The notes under the pieces are model-generated. The model was not told where the DNA came from. It saw only the letters and a program-made list of their open reading frames with translations, and ran no database searches. From Xanthomonas cassavae CFBP 4642 (GTDB taxonomy: Bacteria; Pseudomonadota; Gammaproteobacteria; Xanthomonadales; Xanthomonadaceae), in NCBI RefSeq assembly GCF_000454545.1, contig NZ_CM002139.1, positions 655,530-688,604 of the forward strand: DNA of 33,075 bases, written 5' to 3'. Of this stretch, positions 3,538 through 21,899 are shown piece after piece; position 1 is the first letter of the stretch, and each line of letters opens with the position of its first letter. A program made the translations under genes and the position numbers.

Positions 3538-3929
3538 GCGTGGCTCCCCTGCAGCGAGACATGCGCGGCCACCACTTTCCAGCCGTCGGCAAAGCGCACC
3601 CAGCTCTGGCTCTGGCGGCCGCGCGCGCTGCTGCCTTCGCGCAGGAATTCGGCATGCGTGGTGGCCAGATCCTGGCCGAAGCTATGCACCTCGACATGGG
3701 TGAGCCTGCGCTGCGGCGAGCCGCCGCGGCCGATGCGGAAGGCGCGGATCGCCTCGATGCCGTACAGCACCTCGCCCACGCCATAACGCACGGTGCTGGG
3801 CGCGGCATGAAACAGCGCATCCATTGCGGCGATGTCGTCGCGCATCAAGGCGTCCTCGTAGGCGTGGAAGGCGGCGCTCACCTGTGCGATCACCTCGGGC
3901 AGATCGATCTGCGCTGCATCGATGCTCAT
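3534..3929 (-). CDS. hpxZ: Oxalurate catabolism protein HpxZ (DUF3225, NTF2-like)
   Basis: This 131-residue protein of the DUF3225/HpxZ family has an NTF2-like layout: a helical N-terminus (FHAYEDALMRDDIAAMDALF), then YGVGEVLYGIEAIRAFRIGR and a beta-rich C-terminal half ending WVRFADGWKVVAAHVS. HpxZ accompanies oxalurate amidohydrolase genes in Klebsiella hpxWXYZ; its chemistry is not established to my knowledge. Here it sits in the urate operon about 8 kb from hpxY/hpxW. The start at 3929 gives MSIDAAQIDLPEV and overlaps the puuE stop by 4 nt; the longer frame to 3983 runs into puuE and is unlikely. Confidence 0.85.
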   Translation of the reverse strand: MSIDAAQIDLPEVIAQVSAAFHAYEDALMRDDIAAMDALFHAAPSTVRYGVGEVLYGIEAIRAFRIGRGGSPQRRLTHVEVHSFGQDLATTHAEFLREGSSARGRQSQSWVRFADGWKVVAAHVSLQGSHA

Positions 3930-6069: not shown

Positions 6070-7342
6070 GGGGCGCTCCCAGGTGATCGATGAAGTGGCG
6101 CATGACCGCCAGTGCGACCTCGGCGTCGGCCGGGGCCACGTGTTCGTCCGGATGATGGCTGACGCCGCCGGCGCAGCGCACGAACAGCATGGCCGTCGGG
6201 CAGAGCGCGGCCATCGTCATCGCATCGTGGCCGGCGCCGGAGACCAACCGCCGTGGGGCGATGCCCTGCGCGGCGACGGCGTGTTCGAGCCGGGTCATCA
6301 GCGCCGGTGCGCAGGGGCTGGCGGCCAGGGTCTGCAATGGGTCGATGGCGATCGCAACGCCGCGTTCGCCGCCGATGCGGGCCAGTGCGTGTTCGATCGC
6401 GCGCACCGCGGCGTCGCGGGTGGCGTCGTCGCCGGCGCGCACGTCCAGCGTGCAGTCCACCCGCCCGGGCACCACGTTGACCGCGCCGGGGGCGAGCTGC
6501 AGTTTGCCGACGGTGGCCACCAGCGCGTTGCTGCCCTCGCGCGCGATGCGTTCGATCGCCAGCAATGCGTCGGCCGCGGCGCTCAAGGCATCGCGACGCA
6601 GCGCCATCGTGGTGGTACCGGCATGCCCGGCGCGGCCGTCGAAGCGCAGCGCAAAACGCCGTTGTGCGGCGATCGCAGTGACGATGCCCACTGGCAGGCC
6701 GTCGGCTTCGAGCACCGGGCCTTGTTCGATATGCGTTTCCAGATACGCCAGTACGCTGCCGGGCGCGCGTGCGGCGTGGTGGATCTGCGCGATGTCCAGA
6801 TCCCATTGTGCCAACGCGCTGGCGACATCGATGCCGGCCGCGTCGCTCAGCGCCAACGCGGCCGGGTCGAGCGTGCCGGCCACCGCGCGGCTGCAGACCA
6901 TGGAGGCGGGAAAACGCGAGCCTTCTTCGTCGCCGAATGCGATCACTTCGATGGCGAATGGCAGCCGGCGCACTTGCGCCTGCAGTGCGGCCACGCATTC
7001 GATGCCGAGCAGCACGCCCAGCGGACCGTCGTAGCGGCCGGCATCGCGCACGCTGTCCAGATGGCTGCCGATCAGCAGCGCCGGCGCATCGGCGTGTGTG
7101 CCCTCGTACCGCCCGATCAGGTTGGCGGTCGCGTCCAGGCGGACCTGCATGCCGGCCTGGCGCATCCACTCGCCCACCTGCCCCACCGCGGCGCGATGGG
7201 CCGGGCTCAGCCAGGCACGGAACAGGCCACCGGGCGTGTCGCTGAAAGGAGCCATGCCCAGCTGGTCGCAACGCGCCACCGCCCTTGCGCCGCCGGGGCG
7301 GTCAAGGTCAGCGGCGGACGAGGTGGACGGAATAGCGGGCAT
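6059..7342 (-). CDS. hpxK: Allantoate amidohydrolase (M20 family, HpxK/AllC-like)
   Basis: This 427-residue M20 metallo-amidohydrolase is predicted to convert allantoate to ureidoglycine, CO2 and ammonia. The two-metal site is visible: GSHLDSV (His94), YDGPLG (Asp105), GDEEGSRF (Glu139/140), ETHIEQGP and the C-terminal GGVSHHPDEH. RAGHAGTTTM is the usual dimerisation-domain signature, and SGAGHDAM is typical of the allantoate/carbamoylase branch. N-carbamoyl-amino-acid hydrolases share all of this, so the substrate is inferred from PuuE and PucG downstream. It is the first gene of the seven-gene operon and sits behind the LysR-type promoter at 7411-7477. Confidence 0.9.
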   Translation of the reverse strand: MPAIPSTSSAADLDRPGGARAVARCDQLGMAPFSDTPGGLFRAWLSPAHRAAVGQVGEWMRQAGMQVRLDATANLIGRYEGTHADAPALLIGSHLDSVRDAGRYDGPLGVLLGIECVAALQAQVRRLPFAIEVIAFGDEEGSRFPASMVCSRAVAGTLDPAALALSDAAGIDVASALAQWDLDIAQIHHAARAPGSVLAYLETHIEQGPVLEADGLPVGIVTAIAAQRRFALRFDGRAGHAGTTTMALRRDALSAAADALLAIERIAREGSNALVATVGKLQLAPGAVNVVPGRVDCTLDVRAGDDATRDAAVRAIEHALARIGGERGVAIAIDPLQTLAASPCAPALMTRLEHAVAAQGIAPRRLVSGAGHDAMTMAALCPTAMLFVRCAGGVSHHPDEHVAPADAEVALAVMRHFIDHLGAPLVT

Positions 7343-7410
7343 GGAGGGGACCGGCAGGGGCTGCAGGGGCGATGGAGGAGGCGGGCAGCGGGCAGAAGAA
7401 GGATGCTTCG

Positions 7411-7440
7411 ACTATAGGGAGCCGGTCCTGTCGCCATCAA
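7411..7440 (-). promoter_or_regulatory. Promoter of the hpxK-pucG-puuE-hpxZ-uraD-hpyO-uraH operon
   Basis: On the minus strand a -35 TTGATG (7440-7435) and a -10 TATAGT (7416-7411) are separated by 18 bp. This puts the start of transcription near 7404, about 60 nt before the hpxK ATG. The same block, with one base less in the spacer, stands before hpxD. Confidence 0.65.
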
Positions 7441-7462
7441 AGAGTTTTTTCGCCAGCTCGGG

Positions 7463-7477
7463 CTGCAAAAAATGCAA
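7463..7477. promoter_or_regulatory. Putative LysR-type (HpxR) operator, copy 1
   Basis: The interrupted palindrome CTGCAAAAAATGCAA is centred near -66 relative to the inferred start. The 17-mer TGCAAAAAATGCAACGC (7464-7480) is repeated exactly at 20870-20886 beside hpxR. Position and form match the recognition site of LysR-type activators. HpxR as the binder is inference. Confidence 0.6.
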
Positions 7478-7549
7478 CGCGCTTGTGGGGAGCACGCCCA
7501 TCCAACGTCGGGACTGAACACCGGGTGCGGCCGCCATGCCGATGCAGCG

Positions 7550-8488
7550 TTACGCCCCTTGTGCCGGCGGCGCCTCGCCAAACTCCTGGCGTAATGCGTC
7601 GACGCACTCGTCGACGAAGCGGCGCACCTTGGACGAGCCGCGACGTCCTTCCACATGCACCACATGCACCGGTTCCGGTGCGATTTCGAAGTCTTCCAGC
7701 ACGCAGGCGAGTTGCCCGCTGCGCAGGTGCTCGCGCACCTGGTAGGACGGCACCTGGGTCAGCCCCCATCCCTGCAGTGCGGCGTGGATGGCGGCGTTGG
7801 AGGCGCTGACGCTGAGCCGCGCGCCCACATCCACCAGATGCTCGCGGCCTTCCACCCGGAACGGCCAGCGCGGTGAGCGTTCGGCCGATGAGATCGTCAC
7901 GGTGGCGTGTTGCATCAGCGCATCCGGATGCGGCGGAACACCATGCGCGCGCAGATAAGCGGGCGTGGCACACACCATGCGGCGCACGCTGCCGACCGGG
8001 ATAGCGGTCAGCGACGAATCGGGCAATGCACCGATCCGCACGGCGACATCGATGCCCTCATCCAGCAGTGCCATCACCCGATCCAGCAGGATGGCGCGCA
8101 CCTGCACCTGCGGATAGCGCTGCAGGAAGCGTGTCACCACCGGCATCACGTGCAGGGCGCCGAACATCTGCGGTGCGGTCACGGTGAGCACGCCGCCGGG
8201 CAGCGCGTGCAGTCCGGCCGCGCGGGTTTCCAGTTCGTCCAGCTCGCTCAGCAGGCGCCGGCAATCGCTGGCGTATTGCTGGCCGGCTTCGGTGAGCCGC
8301 ATGGTGCGGGTGCTGCGGACCACCAGCAGCACGCCAAGGCGGCGCTCCAGCTGCGCAATGGTGCGGGTGACCGTGGCGGTGGAAATGCCGAGCTTGCGCG
8401 CCACCGCGGCAAAGCTCGCCTGCTCGGTCAGCGCCGCAAATAGCGTCATTTCCTGGATGCGATCCACCGGTGCCTCGCGCTCGACCAT
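7550..8488 (-). CDS. LysR-family transcriptional regulator (AaeR/DhmR-like group)
   Basis: This is a 312-residue LTTR with a winged-helix N-terminus: FAALTEQASFAAVARKLGIS, then TATVTRTIAQLERRLGVLLV. The effector-binding domain follows (VRIGALPDSSLTAIPVG). The start at 8488 gives MVEREAPVDRIQEMTLF; a GTG at 8467 would match the shorter N-terminus of many relatives. Further upstream extension of the frame is not protein-like for this family. It stands divergently to the alpha/beta hydrolase at 8683, the usual sign that it controls that gene. It ends about 70 nt before the operator upstream of hpxK, but there is no evidence it acts on the purine operon. Confidence 0.88.
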   Translation of the reverse strand: MVEREAPVDRIQEMTLFAALTEQASFAAVARKLGISTATVTRTIAQLERRLGVLLVVRSTRTMRLTEAGQQYASDCRRLLSELDELETRAAGLHALPGGVLTVTAPQMFGALHVMPVVTRFLQRYPQVQVRAILLDRVMALLDEGIDVAVRIGALPDSSLTAIPVGSVRRMVCATPAYLRAHGVPPHPDALMQHATVTISSAERSPRWPFRVEGREHLVDVGARLSVSASNAAIHAALQGWGLTQVPSYQVREHLRSGQLACVLEDFEIAPEPVHVVHVEGRRGSSKVRRFVDECVDALRQEFGEAPPAQGA

Positions 8489-8682
8489 CACCTTCGACAA
8501 GGCGCGAAGCCTAGCAGCCCGCAGTGATCGCGCCGCCAAGCTGCGCCTGCCCATATATGCGAGCGCAACCGCTGGGCACGGCATTGCGCGCCACGCAATG
8601 CTCCATTCAACGCCACGGTGGTTCTCGCGCCACGTCGGCAGACCTAGCATGGCCGCCATTCCACATGCCCTTGCCGGATCAC

Positions 8683-9741
8683 ATGCATGCCGAGTCACCC
8701 ACCACGTTCACGCCACACGACGTCCCGGCACTGCGCGAGCGCCGCAGTTTCCTGCGCGTGTCCTGGATCGGCACTGCACTGGCCCTGGGTGCCGGCGTAC
8801 TGCGAGCGGCCGACGCACCCGGCCACCATTTTTCACCCCTTGAAGGAGACAGCATGTCCCACGACCCCACCCAGCGCGTCCGCTATCGCACCCAGCAGGT
8901 TGGCGATGTCGAGGTGTTCTACCGTGAAGCGGGGCGCAAGGACGCGCCGGTGGTGTTGCTGCTGCATGGTTTTCCCAGCGCCAGCCACATGTTCCGCGAC
9001 CTGATGCCGTTGCTGGCAAGCCATTACCGCCTGATCGCGCCGGACCTGCCTGGCTTCGGCATGACCAAGGCGCCACCGCGCGGGCAGTTCGAGTACACCT
9101 TCGACGCGCTCTACAAGGTGATCGAAGGCTTCACCGATGCGCTGGGCCTGGCCCGCTATGCGCTGTACGTCTTCGACTACGGCGCGCCGGTGGGCCTGCG
9201 CCTGGCGGCCGCAAACCCGCACAGGGTCAGCGCCATCATCAGCCAGAACGGCAATGCCTATCTGGAGGGCTTCAGCGACCAGTGGGATGCATGGCAGGCG
9301 TACTGGCGCGAGCCGACGGACGCCAATCGCCAGGCCTGCCGTGCCTCATTGTCGGCGCAGACCATCCGTGAGTGGCAGTACGGCACCGGTGCCGACCCGA
9401 GCAGGCTCTCGCCCGACGGCTACACCCTGGATATCGCCTACATGGCGCGCCCGGGCGCCGAAGAGATCCAGCTGGATCTGATCCTGGACTACCGCAGCAA
9501 CCTGCAGGCCTACCCGGAGTTCCAGGCGTATTTTCGCGCCCATCAGCCGCCGTTGCTGGCGGTGTGGGGCAAGCACGATCCAGCGTTTGTCCCGGCCGGC
9601 GCGCAGGCCTATCGCACCGATCTGCCGAACGCTGAAGTGCACCTGCTCGACACCGGCCACTTTGCGCTGGAAACCCATGCGGCCGAGATTGCACAGATCA
9701 TCGGCGCGTTCCTGCCGCGCGCGCTGCAGACGGCGACCTGA
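8683..9741 (+). CDS. Alpha/beta hydrolase (haloalkane dehalogenase/epoxide hydrolase type), possible Tat substrate
   Basis: The core is an alpha/beta hydrolase with oxyanion motif HGFPSAS, nucleophile Asp165 in VFDYGAPVG, acid Asp in WGKHDPAF and His in DTGHFALE. An Asp nucleophile points to the dehalogenase/epoxide hydrolase branch, not to esterases. The start is uncertain. From 8683 the protein begins with a Tat-like leader, RERRSFLRV (twin Arg 20-21), a hydrophobic stretch and an AxA site at residues 43-45. An internal ATG at 8854 (residue 58, MSHDPTQRV) has a textbook AAGGAG five bases upstream and would give a 295-residue cytoplasmic form. Both may be used. The substrate is unknown. Confidence 0.82.
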   Translation: MHAESPTTFTPHDVPALRERRSFLRVSWIGTALALGAGVLRAADAPGHHFSPLEGDSMSHDPTQRVRYRTQQVGDVEVFYREAGRKDAPVVLLLHGFPSASHMFRDLMPLLASHYRLIAPDLPGFGMTKAPPRGQFEYTFDALYKVIEGFTDALGLARYALYVFDYGAPVGLRLAAANPHRVSAIISQNGNAYLEGFSDQWDAWQAYWREPTDANRQACRASLSAQTIREWQYGTGADPSRLSPDGYTLDIAYMARPGAEEIQLDLILDYRSNLQAYPEFQAYFRAHQPPLLAVWGKHDPAFVPAGAQAYRTDLPNAEVHLLDTGHFALETHAAEIAQIIGAFLPRALQTAT

Positions 9742-9848
9742 GTCGCCGGCATCGGGTTGTGGGATGCATTCAAGCCGCTGTCATGCGTGCTGTGCGTGGA
9801 AGACAATGACAAGCGGCTCCAGCCAGGCCACTGGTGGCCACAGCGCAT

Positions 9849-9869
9849 GCCGGCCGATCTGCGGCCGGC
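9849..9869. terminator. Stem-loop between convergent genes
   Basis: A perfect 8-bp GC stem (9849-9856 with 9862-9869) with loop ATCTG sits in the 168-nt gap between the convergent hydrolase and GvpU-like genes. It could block transcripts from both sides. No T-run accompanies it, so its role is inferred from position. Confidence 0.4.
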
Positions 9870-9909
9870 CGGGCTGCGCGATCAGCGGCGACCCGCGTGC
9901 CTGCCAGAC

Positions 9910-10368
9910 CTAATCGGCAGACAGCGAGCCCAGGGTGAAGCTGGACACCGCGTTGACCTTGCCGCGCCACAGCACGCCGCGGTTGCTTGGCAGCGGCTGG
10001 CCGCCGGGTGAGAAGCAACGCGCATCGATCAGGTGGATGAACTGCGGCGGTGCGCTGCTCTGCTGGCTCTCGTCATCGGCGTCGTAAATGCTGGCATGGC
10101 TGGCGAATGCAAGACGAATGTCTTCCTTCTCCTCGTCGCTGCCGGGAAACGCCGCAGAAAATTCCTGCGCAAAGGCTTCGAAGTACTGCTTGCCGCTCAC
10201 CAGCTGGCCCGAGACGATCACGCCTTCCACAAACAGGGTAATGCCGAACTGCGTATTCGACGCGTTGGCAATGCCGACCAGCTTCTGCAGATACCAATCC
10301 ACGCTCTGGCCATCGAAGGCCAGCTTGACGTCTTCCAGCGACGGTTGATGTTGATCCTGGTCTGTCAT
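9910..10368 (-). CDS. GvpU-like protein (gas vesicle accessory family)
   Basis: This 152-residue protein resembles GvpU of Bacillus gas-vesicle clusters as I recall it: a GITLFVEGVIVSGQLVSGKQYF block (residues about 44-65) and a C-terminal FIHLIDAR...PSNRGVLWRGKVNAVSSFTLG block. The start at 10368 gives MTDQDQHQP with a GAGGAG site 9 nt upstream. No gas-vesicle structural gene (GvpA, GvpN, GvpF/L) is in the window, and Xanthomonads are not known for gas vesicles, so the role here is unclear. It is cytoplasmic by composition. A 12-bp perfect palindrome lies at 10393-10404, upstream of the start. The family call is from pattern memory. Confidence 0.6.
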   Translation of the reverse strand: MTDQDQHQPSLEDVKLAFDGQSVDWYLQKLVGIANASNTQFGITLFVEGVIVSGQLVSGKQYFEAFAQEFSAAFPGSDEEKEDIRLAFASHASIYDADDESQQSSAPPQFIHLIDARCFSPGGQPLPSNRGVLWRGKVNAVSSFTLGSLSAD

Positions 10369-10594
10369 GGTGCTCTCCTCTAGGTGGATTCGACGACGCG
10401 TCGTGCGCATGGCGGATCTGGATCACTGACCATGCGTGCGCAAGCATGGCACACGTCTTCCCGCAGTGACTGCGGCCGGGTTCGCTCCGGCCGTGTCGAA
10501 AGCACCGTGTTGTGATGCATGAACGCCTGTGCCGCCTGCACGCGGCCTTGCGTCGGCGTGGCACCGCCGCGGTGGTCGCAGCCGCCTGCGGTGC

Positions 10595-12175
10595 TCACCA
10601 CCCTGCAACAACGCCGTCCGAGCGCGGGTCGCTGGCGCCGCTGATCACGCCATCGGCCTGCCGCACCAGTGCACCGGCGTGCCCCATCACCGCCGTGTAG
10701 GCAGGCAGCAGTTCCACCGCATGCCCGGCCTCGCGCAAGGCCTGCACCAGCGCTGGATCGAAGCGGTCTTCCAGCTTCAGCGTGGTGCTGTCCTCGCCCC
10801 AGGTGCGGCCGAGCAGCCAGCGCGGCGCCGTGATCGCCTGCTGCAGCGGCATGCCGAAGCGGGCGTAACGCGAAAACAGCGCGGCCTGGGTCTGTGGCTG
10901 GCCTTCGCCGCCCATGGTGCCGTAGGCCATGACGCGGCCATCGTCGAAGGTGGCCAGTGCCGGGTTGAGGGTGTGGAAGGGTTTGCGCCCCGGGGCGAGC
11001 GCGTTCCAGCCGTCTGCCGCCAGGCGGAAGCTGCAGCCGCGGTTCTGCCAGGTGATGCCGGTGCGCGGCAGCACCAGGCCGGAGCCGAACTCGAAGTAGG
11101 TGGACTGGATGCAGCTGACCGCCCGCCCGGCGGCGTCGATGGCACCGAACCAGACCGTATCGCCGGCCTGCGAGGGTTGCGGCCAGGGCTGGGCACGGGT
11201 CATGTCGATGCGTGCGGCCAGGGCGTCGAGCGCGGCGCCGTCGTCCAGCAATGCCTGTGCATCCAGCGTCATCCACGCCGGGTCGCCGACATGCGCATCG
11301 CGGATCAGGAAGGCCTGTTTGGTGGCTTCGATCAAGCCGTGCACATGCGCAAGGCTGTCGGCCTGGGTCACCTGCAGGCGGTCGAACAACGCCAGGATCA
11401 GCAGCGAGGCCAGGCCCTGGGTGGGTGGCGCGTGGTTGTAGACGCGTGCACCGGCAATGCCCACCGACAACGGCACGCTGCGATCGGCGCGGTGCGCGGC
11501 CAGGTCGTCGGCATGCAGCGGGCTGCCGAGCGCATGCAGGTCGGCGGCGATGTCGGCGGCGAGTTCACCGCGATAGAAGCTGTCCAGGCCGGCGTCGGCC
11601 AGCCGCTGCAGGGTGCGTGCCAGTTGCGCTTGCTGCAACAGCGCGCCTTCGCGCAGGGGCACGCCGTGGGGCTCGAAGATGCGTGCGTAGGCGCCGGGCT
11701 GGCAGCGCAGTTCGTCGCCCTTGCTGGCCGCGATCTGCGCCCCGCCCGCAGTGACCGGCACGCCGGCGCTGGCATGGTGGATGGCATCGGCGAGCAGGCG
11801 CTGCAGCGGTAGCCGGCTATCGGCCTGTTGCAGCGCCAATGCCCAGCCGGAGACGGTTCCGGCCACGGTATTGGCCGCACCGGGGCCGCGCCATGGGATG
11901 CCGGCCTGGCCGGCGTAGACGTCCAGGGTCGCTGCGCGCGCGGCGCGGCCGCAGGCATCGATGGCGTGGACGCGCCCATCCGGCTCGCGGATCAGCCAGA
12001 AGCCGTCGCCGCCGATGCCGGTCATGTGCGGGTACACCACGGCCAGACAGGCGGCGGTGGCAACGGCCGCTTCGATGGCGGTGCCGCCGTCGCGCAAGAC
12101 ATCGCGGCCGGTCTGTGCGGCCAGGTGATGCGGGGCCACCACCATCCCGCGGCAGGCGCGCAAGGTCTGCAGCAT
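10595..12175 (-). CDS. hpxW: Oxamate amidohydrolase HpxW (gamma-glutamyltransferase-like Ntn hydrolase)
   Basis: This 526-residue Ntn hydrolase of the gamma-glutamyltransferase family should mature by self-cleavage before Thr340 in GDTVWFGAID. Flanking motifs are PHMTGIGGDGFW near the N-terminus and IQSTYFEFGSGLVLPRTG after the nucleophile. The TVWF context and absence of a signal peptide separate it from periplasmic Ggt. In Klebsiella HpxW hydrolyses oxamate to oxalate and ammonia. Its ATG shares one base with the stop of the oxalurate amidase gene (TGATG at 12173-12177), which couples the two last steps of the pathway. The remaining alternative is a glutathione-type Ggt, which the neighbours make unlikely. 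Confidence 0.85.
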   Translation of the reverse strand: MLQTLRACRGMVVAPHHLAAQTGRDVLRDGGTAIEAAVATAACLAVVYPHMTGIGGDGFWLIREPDGRVHAIDACGRAARAATLDVYAGQAGIPWRGPGAANTVAGTVSGWALALQQADSRLPLQRLLADAIHHASAGVPVTAGGAQIAASKGDELRCQPGAYARIFEPHGVPLREGALLQQAQLARTLQRLADAGLDSFYRGELAADIAADLHALGSPLHADDLAAHRADRSVPLSVGIAGARVYNHAPPTQGLASLLILALFDRLQVTQADSLAHVHGLIEATKQAFLIRDAHVGDPAWMTLDAQALLDDGAALDALAARIDMTRAQPWPQPSQAGDTVWFGAIDAAGRAVSCIQSTYFEFGSGLVLPRTGITWQNRGCSFRLAADGWNALAPGRKPFHTLNPALATFDDGRVMAYGTMGGEGQPQTQAALFSRYARFGMPLQQAITAPRWLLGRTWGEDSTTLKLEDRFDPALVQALREAGHAVELLPAYTAVMGHAGALVRQADGVISGASDPRSDGVVAGW

Positions 12176-13635
12176 CACTGGCCCTGCGCGGGGGGGCTGA
12201 AGGCCAGGTGCCCATCGCGTTCGAGCTGCGCGGCGAGGGCGAACAGGCGGTCTTCGCGGCCGGGCGCGGCGATCAGCTGCACGCCCAACGGCAGGCGCCC
12301 CGGACGCGGCAGCGGCGCGGCCAGCACCGGGCACCCGGCCAGGCCAAGCGGCTGGGTGAAGATGCCCAGGTTGGCGCGTGCCGAGACAGGCAGGCCATCG
12401 ATCTGGATGGTGTCCTGATCGATGCGCGGCGCCACGCACGGCGTGGCGGGGGCGATCAGCACGTCCACCCCGTCCCACAGCGCCCGCATCGCGGTGGCGA
12501 ACCAGCGGGCGAACGCCTGCGCATCGGCCACTGCGCTGGCCGGCAGCTGCAACCCGGCCAGCAGGCGGTCGCGCGTGGCCGGGTCGAACTGCTCGGCCTG
12601 CGTTCCCAGGGCGGCGCGATGGCGGTGGCCGCCTTCGGCGGCGGTCAGCACGAAGGCCGCCGCGCGGGCACGTTCGGCGTCCGGCAACTGGATCACCGCG
12701 GTGCTGTTGCAGGCTTGCATCAGCGCGCCCAGGCCGGCCTCCAGCTCGGGATCGAGAGTGTGCTGGAACCAGCCGCCAAGCCGGGCGATGCGCAGCGTGT
12801 CGGCAGGGCAGGCGGCAACTGGCTGCCCGAGCATCACTTCGTGTACGCGGCGCAGATCGGCCACCGAGGTCGCGAAGGGCCCCACCACGTCCAGCGCATC
12901 GACGAAGGGAAACACGCCCTCCAGCGGAATTGCGCCATGGCTCGGGCGCAGGCCATATACGCCGCATAGCGCGGCGGGCACGCGGATCGAGCCGTTGGTG
13001 TCCGAGCCCAGCGCGAACGGCACCAGCCCCGCCGCCACCGCTGCCGCCGAGCCGCCCGACGAGCCGCCGGCCAGATGCTGGGGGTCGTGCGGGTTGGCGG
13101 TGGTGCCGTAGTGCGCGTTGACGGTGGCAAACCCGTAGGCGAATTCGTCCATGTTGGCCGTGCCGACCAGTACCGCACCGGCATCGCTCAGGCGTTGCAC
13201 CACCGCCGCATCGCGCTGGGCCGGCGCGCAGTGCGCGCGTACCGCCGCGCCGGCGGTGGTGACCTGGCCGGCGACATCGAACAGGTCCTTGACCACGAAC
13301 GGCACGCCCGCCAGCGCACCGCCATCGCTGCCACCGGTCAGCGCCGACTGCACGCGCGCGGCATCGGCGGCGGCGCGCGCCGGCAGCAGGCGGGTGATCG
13401 CACACAGGCGGTCGTTGGCCTGGTGGATGCGTGCCAGGGTCCGGGTGGCCAGGCGCGCGGCTTGCGCGGGCTGGCTGCGCGTGGTGGCGACGATGGCCGC
13501 GATCTGGCCCCGCGGGCCGGCCGTGTCGTGGGCGGCGGCGCGTGGCGGGGTGAAGCTGGCCAACACGTGCGCATGGCCGCGCAGGATGTCGGAATTGCGA
13601 TCGACGCCGGCTTGCCACTGCGCTGGGAGTTGCAT
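12175..13635 (-). CDS. hpxY: Oxalurate amidohydrolase HpxY (amidase-signature family)
   Basis: This 486-residue amidase-signature protein has the full catalytic set: Lys in VPFVVKDLFDVAG, cis-Ser in GGSSGGSAAAVAAG and the nucleophile Ser in GSDTNGSIRVPAALCG. It is close to the AtzE/AtzF and HpxY branch. With PucG making oxalurate and HpxW using oxamate, the inferred reaction is oxalurate to oxamate plus CO2 and ammonia. About 41 residues precede the normal amidase start (RGQIAAIVATTRSQPAQAA). The small HpxX (AtzG-like) partner found with HpxY in Klebsiella is not seen as a separate gene. An amide hydrolase for another substrate, or a GatA-like protein, is less likely given the context. Confidence 0.8.
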   Translation of the reverse strand: MQLPAQWQAGVDRNSDILRGHAHVLASFTPPRAAAHDTAGPRGQIAAIVATTRSQPAQAARLATRTLARIHQANDRLCAITRLLPARAAADAARVQSALTGGSDGGALAGVPFVVKDLFDVAGQVTTAGAAVRAHCAPAQRDAAVVQRLSDAGAVLVGTANMDEFAYGFATVNAHYGTTANPHDPQHLAGGSSGGSAAAVAAGLVPFALGSDTNGSIRVPAALCGVYGLRPSHGAIPLEGVFPFVDALDVVGPFATSVADLRRVHEVMLGQPVAACPADTLRIARLGGWFQHTLDPELEAGLGALMQACNSTAVIQLPDAERARAAAFVLTAAEGGHRHRAALGTQAEQFDPATRDRLLAGLQLPASAVADAQAFARWFATAMRALWDGVDVLIAPATPCVAPRIDQDTIQIDGLPVSARANLGIFTQPLGLAGCPVLAAPLPRPGRLPLGVQLIAAPGREDRLFALAAQLERDGHLAFSPPAQGQ

Positions 13636-14028
13636 GGGTCACCTTGGGGTTGGGAATCGGGAATCGAGAATCGGGAATGGATAAATCGGGTTTTTTTCTG
13701 GCTGATTGCAGTCAATGGGTTTGTTGGTGGTGCGTGGGAACGCGCGGCAATTGACTGCAGTACAGCGTATGAGCTGCGTAATCTGGTTATTAGAAGTAGA
13801 GAGCTGGATGAGGCTTGCGCTGCGGATGGAAGGACTCGATGGAAGCGCGGAAATGCGGGTTGCAGCTGCGTTGTCGGGGTGCCTCTGCGCGATCTAAGCA
13901 TGCGGGGGCGGCGTGAGGCGTCGTTTTGTCTCAGCGCCGGGATCTGCCGCTTTCCCGCGCGAGAGGGATTAGGGCGAGGTGCCCGGCCAGTTGACGACTG
14001 ATCAGGCGCGCGCTGGATCGCGTTCTAC
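13636..14028. other. Gene-free region upstream of hpxY with an inverted repeat
   Basis: No coding frame is convincing in these 393 nt. The region holds the heptamer tract, a T7 run at 13691-13697 and a perfect 10-bp inverted repeat (13707-13716 TGCAGTCAAT with 13750-13759) separated by 33 nt. The repeat lies 70-125 bp upstream of the hpxY start and could bind a regulator. I see no clear -35/-10 pair, and no copy of the operator found before hpxK and hpxD. Confidence 0.5.
13652..13679. repeat. Four tandem heptamers (GGGAATC type)
   Basis: Four adjacent 7-bp units, GGGAATC, GGGAATC, GAGAATC and GGGAATG, lie 17 nt upstream of the hpxY start. Such short GGGAATC tracts are common between Xanthomonas genes as far as I recall. 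They may vary in copy number between strains, which could shift hpxY promoter spacing. Confidence 0.65.
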
Positions 14029-15186
14029 CTACGCAACGCGCGACACGTCGTGATCAACTCCCTCATCTGTGCCGCGTGCCGCTTGGTCCCGTGGCAGTGG
14101 AGGCAACGGCCTGCCCACGGCCGGCGGCTGCGGTGCGGTGAGGCGGTCCACCAGGAGGTGTTCGAACGCCTCCACATCCACCGCATGCACCACCGTCTGT
14201 GCCTGCTCGCCCAGGCCGGGTTGGTAGCCCGGTGCCCATGACAGGATGTCGCCATAGCCCGCCTCGAAGGCAGTGTTGGTATCCACATACACCGTGTCGG
14301 TGCGGGTTGCGAGTTCTGGCCGCAGCCACAGTGCCGTGGCCAGCTCATCCCACATCGGAAAGCCCGGCTCGCGCCGGCGCAGTGCGTGCCCGATCGTCGT
14401 GTCGGCGGCACTCATGCGCGCGAGCAGGTGAGGGGTGAGTTCGGTGGCGGTGGAAGGGTCCACCGGCACCATGGCGATCTTGCGCCACGGGGCATGCATG
14501 ACGATGCGGGCCGCTTCCGGATCCCAGCGGATATTGAATTCGCGCCGCGGCGAATTGACGAACTCGCGCGCGAATTGCTGTGCGCTCACGCTGTTGCGTT
14601 GCTGCCGCGGATTGAGGCTGCCGCCCATGTAGACCAGTTCGCGTGCCAGCGTGGCGAACGCCGGGTCCAGCGATTGCGCCAGCGCCAGATTGGTCAGCGG
14701 GCCGGTGGCGATGATGCTCACCTCGCCCGGGTACTGGCGCACCATGCGCAGCATGAACAACGCGGCCGGCTCGTCGGCCGGGCGCACCACACTGGGATTG
14801 CCCAGCGCCAGGTCGGGCACTACGTCGTGCGCGTGATAGCGCGGCGCGCTCTGCACGGTGTCGCCATCCACCCACTGCCGCGTCCACGCACCTTTCCAGA
14901 CCAGCTTGCCGTACAGCGCTTCCCAGCGCTCGGTGGCGGCCTCGCTGTTGAGCAGCGGATGCACCGGGCCCGGCAGCACCGGAATCTGCGGGTGGCCGGC
15001 CAGTTCCAGCAGGCGGCAGGTATGCGCCAGCACTTCGTCGCGCCAGATGTTGCCGCTCACCGCGCTGATGCCGAGCACCTCGACCTCGGGCGATTGCAAC
15101 AGCAGGACATGCGCAGGCGTGAAGCCATCGATATCGTCTTCGAGGATGACGCGGCGTCTGGATGCGGTGGCGTTCGGGTCGGTCAT
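14029..15186 (-). CDS. Nucleoside hydrolase with variant metal-binding motif
   Basis: This 385-residue inosine/uridine-preferring nucleoside hydrolase-like protein should release base and ribose from nucleosides. Family features are VEVLGISAVSGN after the first strand, IIATGPLTNLALAQ, FNIRWDPEAARIVM, MVPVDPSTATELT and PMWDELATALWL. The N-terminal calcium motif differs: canonical DTDPGxDD is replaced by EDDIDGFTPAH (residues 16-26), and the usual HDP triplet reads WDE. Activity is therefore likely but not certain; substrate range may differ from classical enzymes. No signal peptide is present. It follows the adenosine deaminase gene on the same strand, 86 nt away. Confidence 0.8.
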   Translation of the reverse strand: MTDPNATASRRRVILEDDIDGFTPAHVLLLQSPEVEVLGISAVSGNIWRDEVLAHTCRLLELAGHPQIPVLPGPVHPLLNSEAATERWEALYGKLVWKGAWTRQWVDGDTVQSAPRYHAHDVVPDLALGNPSVVRPADEPAALFMLRMVRQYPGEVSIIATGPLTNLALAQSLDPAFATLARELVYMGGSLNPRQQRNSVSAQQFAREFVNSPRREFNIRWDPEAARIVMHAPWRKIAMVPVDPSTATELTPHLLARMSAADTTIGHALRRREPGFPMWDELATALWLRPELATRTDTVYVDTNTAFEAGYGDILSWAPGYQPGLGEQAQTVVHAVDVEAFEHLLVDRLTAPQPPAVGRPLPPLPRDQAARGTDEGVDHDVSRVA

Positions 15187-15243
15187 TGCGCTTTTGTCGT
15201 GGAAGGTCGAGTGCGTTGCAGCGGCGATGGATCAAGAGCGTTT

Positions 15244-15311
15244 GTAGGAGCGTGCCTGCGCGCGACGGGGAGTCACCGGTAAAGCCCGTTCGCGCTCAAG
15301 CGCGCTCCTAC
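15244..15311. repeat. Inverted pair of GTAG-headed REP elements overlapping the adenosine deaminase 3' end
   Basis: Two units with the GTAGGAGCG head face each other: GTAGGAGCG at 15244-15252 and its complement CGCTCCTAC ending at 15311. Each is followed by an imperfect CGCG-rich palindrome. This is the head-plus-palindrome structure of GTAG REPs known from Stenotrophomonas, Pseudomonas and Xanthomonas. The right-hand unit lies inside the reading frame of the deaminase gene and supplies its last codons. Confidence 0.75.
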
Positions 15312-16847
15312 CTGCAACAGCATGCGCTCGTACTGCGCCAGGTCGATTTCCAGCCGCCATTGCAGCTGCGCCTTCTCACTGGCCTGGCGAAAGGCGCGGC
15401 AGTGGGCATCGTCTGCCTCGCGTTGCAATGCGTCGTGGCAGGCCTGGACGCCAGTGCCATCGGCAGTCCACAGGCTGGCACCTGGCAGGAAGCCATACGT
15501 CAGCCCATTGCGGGCCAGCTGCTTGAGTGTGGGGTAATCGATGCCCTGTTCCTGCATGGCGCGTTGGTACTCGTGGGTCATGTCGGCACGCGACACGCCG
15601 GCATCGTCGGTGGACAGCACCACCGGCACGCCTGCGCGCAGGTACATCGCCAGCGGGTGTTGCGCGCCCTTGACGCCCAGAATCACGTCGTTGCTGGTCA
15701 GGTTGATTTCCACCGCCACATGCTGCTTGCGCATGCGCTCCAGCAGCCCGCTGGCATCGTCCTCGTAGGGCAGGTCCACACCATGGCCGATACGGCGTGC
15801 GCCGGCATCCACGGCCTGGCGGATATGCGAACGCAGCTGCGCCGGCGGTACCAGGCCCAGGGTCAGTTCGCCTGCATGCAGGGACAGCGGCACGCCTGGA
15901 TAGCGCGTGGCGAAGAAGCGGAACATCGCCATATGCCGCGAGTAGTCGGCCAGCGCCACCGGGTTGTCTTCGGGCGCGACGATGTTGACCGCCACCGCGC
16001 GGCTGCCACCGGCGGCCACCAGCGCATGGGCAAGCGCCATCTGCCCGAACACCACCGGCTGCGGCAGCACGCGCAGCACATAGGGCACGTAGCGATAGGT
16101 GACCCGGCAGCCGGGGCGCGCATCGGCCTGGTCGCAGCGCAGCACGCGGCGCACCTGCGCATCGATGTCGGCCAGCGCCGCCTGTGCGGCCTGCACCAGC
16201 GGCGGCAACGCCTGCTGCAGGGCGGCCAGGTTGGCACTGTCGTCATCGCCTCGCCAGGGCAGCGCTTGCATGCGCTGCGCGGCCTGATCCATCTGCGGTG
16301 GGTTGGCGATGATTTCCACGTAAGGCACGCGGTCGCGCGCGGCCTGGTCGAGCACCGCGGCCACGGTATCGGCCACGCGTGTGCGCACCACCGCATCGAA
16401 CTTGCCGAAGCTGCCGAAGAACTGGCCGTGCCCGGTGGGCTGCGCGGCAGTGGGCAGGAACCTGCGCATCGACAAGGCATCCACCACCCGCCCGTACAAC
16501 GCTGCATTGCGTGCGGCCAGGCCGCTGGCCGGCTCCTGCCCCGTGCCGCATGGCGGCGCGCGCAGGCTCAGGTCGTCCAGTTGTACGCAGGCGCCGTCTT
16601 CGCTGGCCCACTGCAGGTAGTCCTCGGCATACACCGAACCGGACAGGTGGTTGTGCAGGTCGCCGCCCTTGGGCATGGCCTGCAACCAGGCGCGCAGCTG
16701 TGCAGGGTGCGCGGCGGCAGCGTGGAACAGCTGCGCCACCTGTTGCTCGCGCTGCTGCGCGGGAGCAACGGGAGCCGTGCGTGCCTGGGCGATGCAGGGC
16801 AACAGCACGCAAACGCTCAGGATCAGATAACGATGCAGACTCGACAT
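15273..16847 (-). CDS. Exported adenosine deaminase
   Basis: This 524-residue protein of the adenosine/AMP deaminase superfamily has metal-binding GGDLHNHLSGS (His65, His67), SLHAGE, RIGHGVDL and LSTDDAGVS, all at the expected places. It should turn adenosine into inosine and ammonia. The start at 16847 gives a signal peptide, MSSLHRYLILSVCVLLPCIA with cleavage after AQA (residue 22), so it acts outside the inner membrane, like the secreted ADGF/CECR1 type and unlike cytoplasmic Add. It is long because of inserts between the conserved blocks. The last 12 residues are encoded by a REP unit. No strong ribosome-binding site is seen before the ATG. Confidence 0.9.
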   Translation of the reverse strand: MSSLHRYLILSVCVLLPCIAQARTAPVAPAQQREQQVAQLFHAAAAHPAQLRAWLQAMPKGGDLHNHLSGSVYAEDYLQWASEDGACVQLDDLSLRAPPCGTGQEPASGLAARNAALYGRVVDALSMRRFLPTAAQPTGHGQFFGSFGKFDAVVRTRVADTVAAVLDQAARDRVPYVEIIANPPQMDQAAQRMQALPWRGDDDSANLAALQQALPPLVQAAQAALADIDAQVRRVLRCDQADARPGCRVTYRYVPYVLRVLPQPVVFGQMALAHALVAAGGSRAVAVNIVAPEDNPVALADYSRHMAMFRFFATRYPGVPLSLHAGELTLGLVPPAQLRSHIRQAVDAGARRIGHGVDLPYEDDASGLLERMRKQHVAVEINLTSNDVILGVKGAQHPLAMYLRAGVPVVLSTDDAGVSRADMTHEYQRAMQEQGIDYPTLKQLARNGLTYGFLPGASLWTADGTGVQACHDALQREADDAHCRAFRQASEKAQLQWRLEIDLAQYERMLLQVGARLSANGLYR

Positions 16848-17174
16848 GCAGGAAACACTCGCTAAAGACAGTAGGGCCTGGTGGCTGCGGGCGGCTGCAC
16901 AGGGATGCCAGGCAGGAAAGCGGTGGCGTCCAAGGCAGGCATGGCAGATGCAGGCTGCCGCCACACAAGCACGATGGCGTGCGCAATGCCAGCAGGAGGA
17001 CTGGCGGACACCACATCACCGGCTCTGCGCAGGCGGTGCCTGACCGGCCGCACCATGCAGCCGGCAGCGTCGCTCGCGCGCCAGGCAATCACCGCCGCGC
17101 GTGCCAGGCTGCGCCGGTGACGACCACATGCGGCGCGACTGCGCGAGCACGCATTTGCGCATGCCAGCATCGGC
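16848..17174. other. Intergenic stretch between permease and deaminase genes
   Basis: These 327 nt hold no frame that looks coding and no obvious terminator with a T-run. The deaminase promoter should lie here if it is not co-transcribed with the permease, but I cannot point to a clear -35/-10 pair. Confidence 0.5.
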
Positions 17175-18488
17175 TCATTCCAGCGCATAGCGCAGCACGA
17201 ACAAGCCGGCGATCGCCCAGGTGGCCGGGTGCACGCCGCGCCAGCGGCCGCTGCCGAGCTTGAGCGCCGCGTAGGTGATGAAGCCCAGTGCCAGACCGGT
17301 GGCGATGGAATAGGTGAGCGGCATGGCGAGCATGCAGATCGCCGCCGGTAACGCTTCGTTGACATCGTCCCACTGGATCTGCGTGCACTCGCGCAGCATC
17401 ACCGAGGCCAGATAGATCAGTGCCGGCGCGGTGGCATAGGCCGGCACCATGGCCGCCAACGGCGAGAACAGCAGCGCCAGCAGGAACAAGGCGGCGACCA
17501 CCAGTGCGGTCAGGCCGGTGCGCCCGCCGACCTGCACGCCGGCAGCGCTTTCCACGTAGGCGGTGGTACTGGAGGTGCCGAGCAACGAGCCGGCCAGGAT
17601 GGCGGTGCTGTCGGCCAGCAGGGCGCGGTCGAACTGCCGGCGTTGCGCCTGCGTGCGCAGCAGGCCGGCGCGCTGCGCCACACCCATCAAGGTGCCGGTG
17701 GCATCGAACATCTCCACCAGCACGAACACCAGCACCACATGCAGCACCGCCGCAAGCGCACCGCTGCCGCCGTGGCCGTGCAGCGCGCCGGCAATATCTA
17801 GCTGCAACAGCGTCGGCGCCAGGCTTGGCGGCAGCGACAGCACGCCCTGGTAGCGCACCAGACCCAGCGCCAGCGCCGCGGTGGTGACGGCCAGGATACC
17901 GAGCAACATCGCCCCCCGCACGCGGCGCACGTCCAGTACGCCGATCAACAGCAGGCCAGCCAATGCCAGCAGCGGTTCGGGCCGATGCAGGTCGCCCAGG
18001 GTCAGCAGCGTTTGCGGATGCGCCACCACCAGCCCGGCCTTCTGCAGGCCGATCAGGGCCAGGAACAGGCCGATGCCGACCGCGATCGCGCTGCGCAATG
18101 TGGCCGGAATGCCATCCACCAGCCAGCGCCGCGCGCCGGTGACGGTCAGCAGCAGGAACAGGCAGCCGGAGACGAACACCAGCCCCAGCGTCTGTTGCCA
18201 GCTGTAACCCAGCGTGCCCACCACCGTGAAGGCGAAGAACGCATTCAGGCCCATGCCCGGCGCCATGCCGATCGGGTAGTGGGCCAGCACGCCCATCAGC
18301 AGCGAGCCCAGCGCCGCGGCCAGGCAGGTCGCCACGAACACCGCGCCATGGTCCATGCCGGTGGTGGCCAGGATGTCGGGGTTGACGAAGATGATGTACG
18401 CCATCGTCAGGAAGGTGGTGGCACCGGCCAGCAGCTCGGTGCGCGCAGTGCTGCCATTGGCGGCCAGCGCGAATCCGGGCCAGCGCAT
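17175..18488 (-). CDS. AzgA-type purine permease (NCS2 family)
   Basis: This 437-residue inner-membrane transporter is related to AzgA, the adenine/guanine/hypoxanthine permeases of the nucleobase-cation symporter-2 superfamily. Diagnostic pieces are FLTMAYIIFVNPDIL near the N-terminus, PIGMAPGMGLNAFFAF (about residues 72-87), LVEMFDATGTLMGVA and GTSSTTAYVESAAGVQVGGR. Hydrophobic segments fill most of the chain, consistent with about 12-14 helices. The start at 18488 matches the normal short cytoplasmic N-terminus. It lies 258 nt after hpxE on the same strand. Proton symport of hypoxanthine or adenine fits HpxDE and the exported deaminase. Confidence 0.9.
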   Translation of the reverse strand: MRWPGFALAANGSTARTELLAGATTFLTMAYIIFVNPDILATTGMDHGAVFVATCLAAALGSLLMGVLAHYPIGMAPGMGLNAFFAFTVVGTLGYSWQQTLGLVFVSGCLFLLLTVTGARRWLVDGIPATLRSAIAVGIGLFLALIGLQKAGLVVAHPQTLLTLGDLHRPEPLLALAGLLLIGVLDVRRVRGAMLLGILAVTTAALALGLVRYQGVLSLPPSLAPTLLQLDIAGALHGHGGSGALAAVLHVVLVFVLVEMFDATGTLMGVAQRAGLLRTQAQRRQFDRALLADSTAILAGSLLGTSSTTAYVESAAGVQVGGRTGLTALVVAALFLLALLFSPLAAMVPAYATAPALIYLASVMLRECTQIQWDDVNEALPAAICMLAMPLTYSIATGLALGFITYAALKLGSGRWRGVHPATWAIAGLFVLRYALE

Positions 18489-18746
18489 CAGCGTGCGTCC
18501 TCACCGCGGAACAAGGGAATCACACGGCAGGCAGGCATCGGCAAGGCTCTCTTCAACACAGGGCATCCAGAGCGCGGCCCGTGGATGCGGGCTGCTCATC
18601 TTGCCTTGTGCGTGCAGATTTGCCAGCGCCGTGGTCCATTGCAGCGCGTGATCGCCGTGGCGCATCGGGATGGCCGGTACCGGGGAGCGCTGCGCGGCCT
18701 GCCGGGAGCTGCGCAACGCCTGCGGTGCGCGCACGATGCTGCCGGC

Positions 18747-19706
18747 TCAAAGATCCAGCACCAGGCGCGGCGAGCGGCTGCGCGAGCAGCACAGGGTGAT
18801 CTGCGTATTGCTGGCCCGCTCGGCGTCGCTGAGCACGCTGTCGCGGTGATCGGGGACACCGGCGAGCACACCGGTCAGGCAGGCCCCGCACATGCCCTGC
18901 TCGCACGAGAGCGGCACCTCGATCCCGGCATCCAGCAGGGCGCTGGCAATGCTGCCATCGGCCGGTACCTGCAGCACGCGGCCGCTGGCGGCCAGTTCCA
19001 CTTCGAAAGCGCGCTCCGCACCGTGATCGTGGGCGGGATCGACCGCGGCGAAACGCTCGCGATGCAGTTGCGCCGCCCTCCAGCCACGCGCCAGCGCCAG
19101 TTGCGTGAAGTGATCCATGAAGGCCGCCGGCCCGCACAGGTACAATTGATCGCGTGCGCGCGCCTGGCCGAGCTCCTCGGGCACATGCACGCGCGGGCTC
19201 TGCCCGCCATCGCTCAGGTGCAGTTGCACCTGGCCGTGCAGAAAGCCTTGCTGCAGCCGCTGCCCGAAGGCCACATCGGTATGCCGGCGCACGTAGTAAT
19301 GCAGCACGAACGGCTCGCCGCGCGCTTCCAGCGCTTCGGCCATCGACAGCAGCGGGGTGATGCCGATCCCGGCGGCCAGCAGTACATGCCGTTCGCCCGG
19401 ATGCAGCGGAAACAGATTGCGCGGGCTGGAGATCTGCAGGCGGTCGCCGGGGCTGAGCTGCTCGCACAGGTGCCGCGAGCCACCGCGCGAGGCATCGGCC
19501 AATTTGACGCACAGCACATAGTGATCGCGCACATGCGGCGCGCTGGCGATCGAATACTGGCGGATCATGCCATCCGGCAAGTGCAGGTCCACATGCGCGC
19601 CTGCCTCGAATGCGGGCAACTCGCTGCCGATCGACTCCAGCCGGATCGCACGCTGGCGGGGGCCTTGCTCGGCCACTGCGGCCACACGCACTTCATGCAG
19701 GCTCAT
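18747..19706 (-). CDS. hpxE: Rieske oxygenase reductase component HpxE (FMN, NAD, 2Fe-2S)
   Basis: This 319-residue reductase of the phthalate dioxygenase reductase type has, in order, a flavin domain (RQYSIASAP near residue 49), an NAD domain (LLAAGIGITPLLSM, then YLCGPAAFM) and a C-terminal plant-type ferredoxin domain with CEQGMCGAC plus a final Cys in TLCCSRS. It passes electrons from NADH to the oxygenase HpxD encoded just upstream. The ATG at 19706 has AAGGAG 7 nt before it and lies 17 nt after the hpxD stop. A vanillate demethylase reductase would look the same; the substrate is inferred from the purine context. Confidence 0.82.
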   Translation of the reverse strand: MSLHEVRVAAVAEQGPRQRAIRLESIGSELPAFEAGAHVDLHLPDGMIRQYSIASAPHVRDHYVLCVKLADASRGGSRHLCEQLSPGDRLQISSPRNLFPLHPGERHVLLAAGIGITPLLSMAEALEARGEPFVLHYYVRRHTDVAFGQRLQQGFLHGQVQLHLSDGGQSPRVHVPEELGQARARDQLYLCGPAAFMDHFTQLALARGWRAAQLHRERFAAVDPAHDHGAERAFEVELAASGRVLQVPADGSIASALLDAGIEVPLSCEQGMCGACLTGVLAGVPDHRDSVLSDAERASNTQITLCCSRSRSPRLVLDL

Positions 19707-19723
19707 GGCGCGCTCCTTGGCGG

Positions 19724-20776
19724 TCAACGCAGGAAGAAGTCGCTATAGCCCTGGCTGCGCAGGCCACGGCGGTAGGCGATCGAACTGCGATCGGCCGGGA
19801 TGTGCACCTCCAGCAGCGGGTCCAGCGGCAGGTATTCGGGGCGCTGTGCTTCCACCATGGCGCGGTCTTCCTCGAACACGCGCAGGTTGAAGGCATGCAC
19901 GTCTTCCACCGCCAGATGGGTGTCGAAGTTGCGCGCGATCGGCACCAGCAGCCGCGTCTTGTGCTTGGACACCGGGCTTGCGGCATTCATGATCACCAGC
20001 CGCTTGCCCGGCACCGGGAAGTGGATGGTGAGCGTGGCGGTGAACGGCAGATGCACCTCGAAATGGCGCAGCCACTGGAAGCTGGGGTCAACGTCCGGCA
20101 GCGGCATGTCCACCGAATAATTGGCCACGCTGCTGAGGTAATCGGCGTTGAAACCGGTCGGCGTCTCGGTGGTGGTGTAGGCCGGCACGTCGCGCTTGTC
20201 CGGTTGGGCAAAGGTGGCGGTGTGCACGAAGGCGAAATGCGCCACGTCGATGAAGCCTTCCAGTTGCCGCGCCGCGCTGCCGCCGATGTCGAAGGCAGGG
20301 CAGACGATCTGCTGAAAGCCGTCCTCGTCCCAACCCGGCATCGGCGGAATCTGCACCTCGGCCTCGCTCACCCCGGCGGGTCTGGCCAGGCACACCCAGA
20401 TCAGGCCGTAGCGCTCGGCCACCGCATAGGTGTGCAGGCGCATCTTGGCCGGGATGTTCTGCGTGGGACTGGCCGGAATGTGATTGCAACGCCCGCCCGC
20501 GCCGAAGCGCAGGCCGTGGTACGCGCACACCACGCCGCCGCCATCGGCCGTGCCCATGCTCAGCGGCACGCCGCGGTGCGGGCAGACATCGCGCGCAGCC
20601 ACCAGCTCCTCGTCCAGCCGATACAGCACCAGCGGCTCATCCAGCAGGGTGGCCTTGAATGGCGCCTGCCCCACCTCGCTGCTCAGCGCCACCGCGTGCC
20701 AGTGCTGGGCCAGGCGCTGCCAGTCGGCCGCCTCGAAGGTGCAGTGCAGCGGCAGGGCGGGGACGGCGACATCCAT
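19724..20776 (-). CDS. hpxD: Rieske non-heme iron oxygenase HpxD (hypoxanthine hydroxylating)
   Basis: This 350-residue oxygenase subunit has Rieske ligands CPHRGVPL and CAYHGLRF near residues 65 and 84 and the mononuclear iron motif GFIDVAHFAFVH near 174. In Klebsiella the two-component HpxDE oxidises hypoxanthine to xanthine in place of a molybdenum enzyme. The arrangement here, with HpxE directly downstream, a divergent LysR gene and a purine permease, repeats that theme. Aromatic demethylases of the VanA type share the motifs, so the substrate is an inference from context. The promoter and operator upstream match those of the urate operon. Confidence 0.82.
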   Translation of the reverse strand: MDVAVPALPLHCTFEAADWQRLAQHWHAVALSSEVGQAPFKATLLDEPLVLYRLDEELVAARDVCPHRGVPLSMGTADGGGVVCAYHGLRFGAGGRCNHIPASPTQNIPAKMRLHTYAVAERYGLIWVCLARPAGVSEAEVQIPPMPGWDEDGFQQIVCPAFDIGGSAARQLEGFIDVAHFAFVHTATFAQPDKRDVPAYTTTETPTGFNADYLSSVANYSVDMPLPDVDPSFQWLRHFEVHLPFTATLTIHFPVPGKRLVIMNAASPVSKHKTRLLVPIARNFDTHLAVEDVHAFNLRVFEEDRAMVEAQRPEYLPLDPLLEVHIPADRSSIAYRRGLRSQGYSDFFLR

Positions 20777-20817
20777 GGGGCGGTCTCTGGCGTAGGGCGG
20801 GGAGCGGTGCCGGATTG

Positions 20818-20846
20818 ACTCTAGGAAGCCGGGGGTGTGTGATCAA
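20818..20846 (-). promoter_or_regulatory. hpxDE promoter
   Basis: On the minus strand, -35 TTGATC (20846-20841) and -10 TAGAGT (20823-20818) are 17 bp apart, putting transcription start near 20811, about 35 nt before the hpxD ATG. The distance from the -35 to the upstream operator equals that at the hpxK promoter. Confidence 0.6.
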
Positions 20847-20868
20847 ACATCGTTTTTCCGCAAAGCCA

Positions 20869-20883
20869 TTGCAAAAAATGCAA
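20869..20883. promoter_or_regulatory. Putative LysR-type (HpxR) operator, copy 2
   Basis: The interrupted palindrome TTGCAAAAAATGCAA (5-bp perfect half-sites) is centred near -65 of the hpxD promoter and ends 20 bp before the hpxR ATG. One site could therefore activate hpxDE and damp hpxR itself, the common LTTR arrangement. It shares 17 identical bases with the site at 7464-7480. Confidence 0.65.
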
Positions 20884-20903
20884 CGCCAACCGAGCTACGC
20901 CCC

Positions 20904-21821: not shown

Positions 21822-21850
21822 GTGTCTTGCGCAAGCGGCCCTCACCCCTG

Positions 21851-21876: not shown

Positions 21877-21899
21877 AACGGCAACGCACTCGCTCCGAA

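Follow-up and report, generated by a model that had tools for sequence, protein, structure and literature searches.

Two purine operons of Xanthomonas cassavae CFBP 4642 lie in one 33,075-nucleotide stretch of DNA (contig NZ_CM002139.1, positions 655,530 to 688,604; hereafter the window). One starts with hpxD and the other with hpxK, their promoters are 13.4 kb apart, and the same sequence block stands upstream of both. What is this shared block, and which regulator reads it? HpxR, a LysR-type regulator, is already known at hpxDE from Klebsiella; its gene is said to lie beside hpxDE in the hpx system of Klebsiella pneumoniae, reportedly described by de la Riva et al. in 2008. The same arrangement is found here, and the original prediction was that HpxR co-activates hypoxanthine oxidation and the whole urate-to-oxalurate operon. 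Our results suggested, with a probability of about 0.83, that both blocks serve as LysR-type promoters in a single HpxR regulon, which would co-activate hypoxanthine oxidation and urate/allantoin breakdown. The block is conserved, it is restricted to hpxR-bearing genomes in the family sample, and its targets are purine genes. That HpxR binds the block, and activates rather than represses, is what knowledge of the LysR family would lead one to expect.

The 17-mer TGCAAAAAATGCAACGC was found exactly where it had been reported, at 7464-7480 and 20870-20886. With up to 3 mismatches allowed, the window has no further match, and two matches arose in 0 of 100 dinucleotide shuffles. ATCAAA lies 28 bp from the 17-mer (start to start) at both places, so the equal spacing claimed earlier stands, although its true positions, 7436-7441 and 20842-20847, are one base off those first given. 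The expected T-run between the two motifs is present at both places, and so are the -35/-10 pairs on the minus (operon) strand: TTGATG and TATAGT with an 18-bp spacer (7440 to 7411), and TTGATC and TAGAGT with a 17-bp spacer (20846 to 20818). A promoter consensus scan listed the first pair; the second was absent from its list. The palindrome TTGCA-N5-TGCAA is perfect at hpxD (20869-20883), but one outer base is off at hpxK, which reads CTGCA-N5-TGCAA on the plus strand (7463-7477). The repeat centre lies 54 bp (hpxK) and 53 bp (hpxD) upstream of the first base of the -10, in agreement with the predicted position of about -65 from the inferred starts. The length of 45 bp was an underestimate, since the common block covers about 75 bp (about 7407-7481 and 20813-20887). 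Upstream of both hpxK and hpxD it is composed of the inverted repeat TTGCA-N5-TGCAA, an A-tract, a -35 and a -10. Read on the operon strand, both copies share GTTGCATTTTTTGCA, the A-tract, a TTGAT -35 and a TAnAGT -10.

Three models of the block were used. R1 was built from the hpxD blocks of 15 relatives (20 distinct blocks less 5 near-duplicates), and neither hpxK blocks nor sequence from the window went into it. For R2, hpxK blocks of 21 relatives were used, namely 20 of 29 distinct ones (the window's own and 8 near-duplicates were dropped) and that of locus L078. R3 is the combined model, which includes the window and was trained partly on family genomes that were later scanned. On the hpxK side the features are as follows; the names hpxK and hpxJ are those that we take the allantoate amidohydrolase and class-V aminotransferase genes to bear.

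7407..7481, minus strand: hpxK-side promoter block (match at 7407-7480, 64.1 bits, with R3, which includes the window; E 1.1e-7 in the genome with the held-out R1)
7463..7477, minus strand: predicted HpxR recognition site, TTGCA-N5-TGCAG on the operon strand, one outer mismatch (94% pairwise identity among 11 orthologous promoters versus 30% just upstream)
7435..7440, minus strand: -35 TTGATG (consensus scan and sequence reading)
7411..7416, minus strand: -10 TATAGT, spacer 18 (consensus scan and sequence reading)
1299..7342, minus strand: seven overlapping genes, for allantoate amidohydrolase (hpxK, the first), class-V aminotransferase (hpxJ-like), allantoinase puuE, hpxZ, uraD, a flavoprotein and uraH (the last)

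The features on the hpxD side are the following, and the gene map of the window confirmed that the second copy sits between hpxD and hpxR.

20813..20887, minus strand: hpxD-side promoter block (match at 20813-20886, 71.2 bits, with R3, window included; E 2.7e-6 in the genome with the held-out R2)
20869..20883, no strand assigned: predicted HpxR recognition site, perfect TTGCA-N5-TGCAA, 20 bp ahead of the hpxR start codon
20841..20846, minus strand: -35 TTGATC (sequence reading)
20818..20823, minus strand: -10 TAGAGT, spacer 17 (sequence reading)
19724..20776, minus strand: hpxD, Rieske oxygenase (PF00355, PF19112)
18747..19727, minus strand: hpxE, ferredoxin/FAD reductase (matches to relatives of such reductases, all below curated cut-offs)
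20904..21821, plus strand: hpxR, LysR-type regulator, divergent from hpxD (PF00126, PF03466)

The block is rare in its own genome. The 14-bp core TGCAAAAAATGCAA occurs exactly only at these two sites of the 5.27-Mb genome; one more place matches with 1 mismatch and nine with 2, and the reversed control pattern gave 5 matches at up to 2 mismatches. Across 35 genomes of the genus, the pattern with at most one mismatch gave 77 matches versus 4 for the reversed control. At least one match was present in 34 of these genomes, and 23 had two matches 12-30 kb apart on one contig. Chance can explain single one-mismatch matches, because three were found in two genomes without hpxR and hpxK (G106 and G107).

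The held-out models recognised each other's promoters. With R1, the hpxK block was the only other match in the X. cassavae genome (E 1.1e-7), and R2 found the hpxD block (E 2.7e-6). In the genus, R1 found the hpxD side in 32 of 35 genomes, and R2 found the hpxK side in all 31 hpxK-bearing genomes. R2 also found the hpxD side in 32 of 33 hpxR-bearing genomes (E 1.7e-6 to 0.015; 31 at E<=0.0014 and one at 0.015). No third genus-wide target was seen in the 35 genomes, where the best match elsewhere had E 0.06 (R1) or 0.16 (R2).

The original prediction had asked for the motif to be kept at both promoters in relatives, and within Xanthomonadaceae it was, at each target. Of the 46 named loci, 33 carry the block upstream of hpxR, and these are exactly the ones with hpxD divergent from hpxR, as in the window; a permease gene takes the place of hpxD in 11 enterobacterial loci, and 2 loci have neither. 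These counts come from a scripted block search upstream of hpxR in 34 of the 46 loci, with L048 and the 11 enterobacterial loci read by eye; gene maps were drawn for 23 loci and for the hpxR neighbourhood of all 46. Of 30 genus loci, 29 have the block upstream of hpxK; the remaining one ends 1 bp from the gene. This count covers 30 of the 31 hpxK-bearing genus genomes, and the 31st (G112) is covered by L078.

Conservation is concentrated in the block itself. Among 11 hpxK promoters of the window's sub-type, pairwise identity is 94% in the repeat, 94% in the A-tract/-35 and 86% in the -10, and only 30% in the 50 bp upstream and 40% in the leader. Among 12 hpxD promoters it is 91.5%, 94% and 93% in the same elements, 46% in the leader and 83% upstream, which there lies inside the hpxR gene. 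Window hpxK is at most 92% identical to that of named relatives. A dyad of the T-N11-A kind, TGCA-N5-TGCA, is found near -65 of the inferred start sites at both promoters, and the second element over the -35 is conserved among orthologues (A-tract/-35, 94%), where contact by HpxR is predicted.

To relate the block to the regulator, 297 family genomes were searched with HpxR and scanned with R3, and the genomes listed by the two agree. An HpxR match (E<=1e-60) was present in 27 of them, and R3 found its best match at E<=8.1e-10 in the same 27 of 27. The 270 family genomes without an HpxR match had a best R3 E of 0.0071, and 14 of them had a match at E<=0.1; the scan used stricter filters, by which weak matches are lost. 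Six of the 27 (G058, G194, G212, G258, G302 and G321) were outside R3 training, with kin of theirs (G006 and X. bonasiae) inside. In seven genomes, X. bonasiae and G006, G058, G194, G212, G302 and G321 of clade g7, hpxR is directly upstream of hpxK with the block between them. G258 of the same clade has hpxR about 15 kb from hpxK, and its hpxK block is kept.

The regulator has the two domains of the LysR type, an N-terminal helix-turn-helix (PF00126, E 1.6e-18) and a C-terminal substrate domain (PF03466, E 2.5e-35). Its relation to a named HpxR was approached through a Gibbsiella protein (54% identity), listed in UniRef under a name that starts 'LysR family hpxDE opero'; over 305 residues, the window's HpxR is 100% identical to that of X. 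floridensis. HpxR is the best-supported regulator of both promoters. The predicted co-control of hypoxanthine oxidation and the urate-to-oxalurate operon is supported by the block kept at both promoters, by held-out cross-recognition and by the co-occurrence of 27/27 versus 0/270, with binding and activation as the presumed steps.

Gene rearrangements in relatives provided further targets. In Stenotrophomonas sp. MMGLT7 and a Lysobacterales metagenome-assembled genome, hpxE is split from hpxD by inserted genes (L046:4653-8680 and L044:1018-4784), an amidohydrolase (PF01979, tested in L046) and a TonB-dependent receptor (PF00593, tested in L044), and has a block of its own. These hpxE blocks are hpxD-like, because R1 scores them above R2 (52 versus 29 bits and 34 versus 11 bits). 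G258 has a block ahead of a purine permease gene (38 bits with R1, 18 bits with R2) and a weak site ahead of a gene of the purine nucleoside permease family (PF06516; R3 E 1.4e-4). The latter is tentative, since it is no stronger than a match in G194 (C1:4141417-4141463, L183; R3 E 1.6e-4) beside which no purine gene was noticed and which serves as a yardstick for weak matches. It is possible, though we hold it only tentatively, that the regulon spreads by copying or re-evolving the whole 75-bp cassette of operator and core promoter (repeat, A-tract, -35, -10 and surrounding sequence) ahead of each separated purine unit: hpxD, hpxE, the permease, possibly the purine nucleoside permease, and hpxK.

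Several observations weigh against a single HpxR regulon. Of the 31 hpxK-bearing genus genomes, 14 had an R1 match to the hpxK side at E<0.01, 12 had one to its repeat half alone (E 0.04-0.44) and 5 had none; these partial or absent matches are explained by a sub-type, present in many species, whose -35 region differs. X. cucurbitae (L043, L190) keeps an intact-looking hpxR, 93% identical, and has no block: R1 had no match at E<=10, no hpxK was found in the genome at E<=1e-60, and no hpxD or hpxE lies within 10 kb of hpxR, hpxDE elsewhere in that genome not having been searched. The same species also counts in favour of the regulon, as a natural loss: its block has decayed in a genome that lacks hpxK and adjacent hpxDE. 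In keeping with the match between the block and a divergent hpxD, neither hpxD nor a permease gene is divergent from hpxR in X. bonasiae and X. cucurbitae, and no block is upstream of hpxR. Also against a single regulon, the 1.5 kb upstream of hpxK is free of the block at six enterobacterial loci, so the site is not conserved at that target there; 11 loci (Rahnella and Rouxiella; regulator 53-57% identical) have a permease gene rather than hpxD divergent from hpxR, and their block upstream of hpxR has diverged, R3 matching 1 of 11 (E 0.039). In 368 other genomes of the class, whose hpxR status was not looked up, R3 matched at E<=0.01 in 12 and below 1e-3 in 3, with a best E of 5.6e-4. R3 matches near 1e-3 or 1e-4 were counted as weak because of these unfollowed matches. 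Loci L191, L192 and L193, from three class genomes outside the family, carry R3 matches at E 5.6e-4 to 8.7e-4.

To figure out whether another protein could read the hpxK promoter, we considered the LysR-type gene that stands directly upstream of hpxK in the window.

7550..8698, minus strand: second LysR-type gene, judged not to be the hpxK regulator (best NCBIfam matches YafC and AaeR, below cut-off)

Its position would suit control of hpxK in place of HpxR. Orthologues (at least 75% identical) are upstream of hpxK in L123, L139 and L142, and G098 (L188) has a 137-residue stretch, 73% identical to its product, about 0.4 kb from an hpxK-type block at a contig end. However, among 28 genus hpxK loci showing at least 1.1 kb upstream, this gene is not in view (up to 1.6 kb) in 24, whereas the block is present in all 28 and in one of the two loci with less upstream sequence (30 genus loci). 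The divergent neighbour of the gene, an alpha/beta-hydrolase gene (PF00561), is a likelier target. We rejected this candidate as patchy, and its control of hpxK is very improbable. Of 19 loci with the second hpxK sub-type, 18 have an unrelated LysR gene divergent from hpxK; this also counts against HpxR acting alone, since the gene could share control or have taken it over. Its product is 26-28% identical to that of 7550-8698 and has PF00126 and PF03466 in L117 (L117:3103-3993), and the hpxK promoters of this sub-type have a different -35 region. Nevertheless, repeat core and spacing are unchanged there and hpxR and the hpxD site are still present, so shared control or a hand-over is unlikely. 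It would not apply to the window, which belongs to the first sub-type and has no such LysR gene there.

Some LysR regulators repress. HpxR might accordingly hold both promoters off until a pathway intermediate relieves repression, and the hpxR-proximal site would suit repression of hpxR. Against this, LysR activators usually have a site at -65 together with a second element over the -35, as in these promoters, and repression of both promoters seems rather doubtful. The likeness of two blocks 13.4 kb apart could also reflect a recent duplication or a chance AT-rich spacer without function. This is barely credible, as each copy is separately conserved across the genus and Stenotrophomonas while the hpxK upstream and leader regions are only 30-40% identical, and as R2 cross-recognition and the co-occurrence of R3 matches with hpxR already contradict it. 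A terminator function of the T-run was rejected too: one terminator-like site overlaps it, but the scan found 5 sites versus a shuffle mean of 5.7. Likewise, no riboswitch or other known RNA family was found at the block in an Rfam scan of the window at gathering thresholds, in which the only match was the Xanthomonas small RNA sX9 (115-189, minus strand; RF02228, 81.4 bits).

Between the two operons, the window holds further purine genes.

10595..18488, minus strand: purine permease, adenosine deaminase-like, nucleoside hydrolase-like, AtzE-family amidase (hpxY-like) and gamma-glutamyltransferase family (hpxW-like) genes, without a block of their own

No third block was found in the window, the best R3 score after the two being 3.7 bits, so the permease, hpxY and hpxW genes have none. 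Transcription from the hpxD promoter probably reads through into the permease-deaminase-hydrolase genes. At the other side, a perfect 195-bp tandem duplication (21705-22089; 2.0 copies, 100%) takes in the 3' end of hpxR, and a stop codon inside the first copy keeps the gene intact.

HpxR as activator of both operons could work as follows. A dimer or tetramer would bind the T-N11-A site TTGCA-N5-TGCAA, whose centre is at about -65, and may contact a second, weaker element (the A-tract and TTTGAT) overlapping the -35. With a purine-pathway inducer bound, HpxR would recruit RNA polymerase to hpxDE and to the hpxK-hpxJ-puuE-hpxZ-uraD-flavoprotein-uraH operon, and hypoxanthine oxidation and urate/allantoin breakdown would be switched on jointly. 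Since HpxR serves both pathway ends, a plausible inducer is a compound from within the pathway, for example xanthine, urate or allantoin. HpxR probably limits its own expression as well, because the hpxD-side site is 20 bp ahead of its start codon.

This layout resembles known systems. In PMC5002191, T-N11-A dyad sites are described for LysR-type regulators (CynR, IlvY, OxyR and others). Such systems share with this one the dyad, a second element near the -35 and a divergent regulator gene, and differ in that here the half-site is TTGCA and a single pathway has two target promoters, or three in some relatives. The hpxDE products oxidise hypoxanthine to xanthine and xanthine to uric acid, according to PMC7373994. 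The next step may be that of HpyO, the urate hydroxylase of Xanthomonas (Michiel et al.; PMC4562309): the flavoprotein gene that lies between uraD and uraH would suit the conversion of urate to hydroxyisourate and, by its position, is probably HpyO-like. Compared with the hpx system described for Klebsiella pneumoniae, a possible difference is that the block here is also at the allantoate/urate operon. A limited literature search, with de la Riva 2008 not among its sources, found no two-operon HpxR regulon in print. A LysR regulator with few pathway operons is an ordinary kind of system; what appears to be new is the proposed reach of HpxR to the urate/allantoin operon, given here with coordinates and supported across the genus.

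In conclusion, the regulator, its sites and its expected targets can be named, and the gain and loss of sites with gene rearrangement offers a natural test. The finding would describe a genus-wide regulon with base-level coordinates, in which one LysR regulator coordinates the upper (hypoxanthine) and lower (urate to oxalurate) parts of aerobic purine breakdown.

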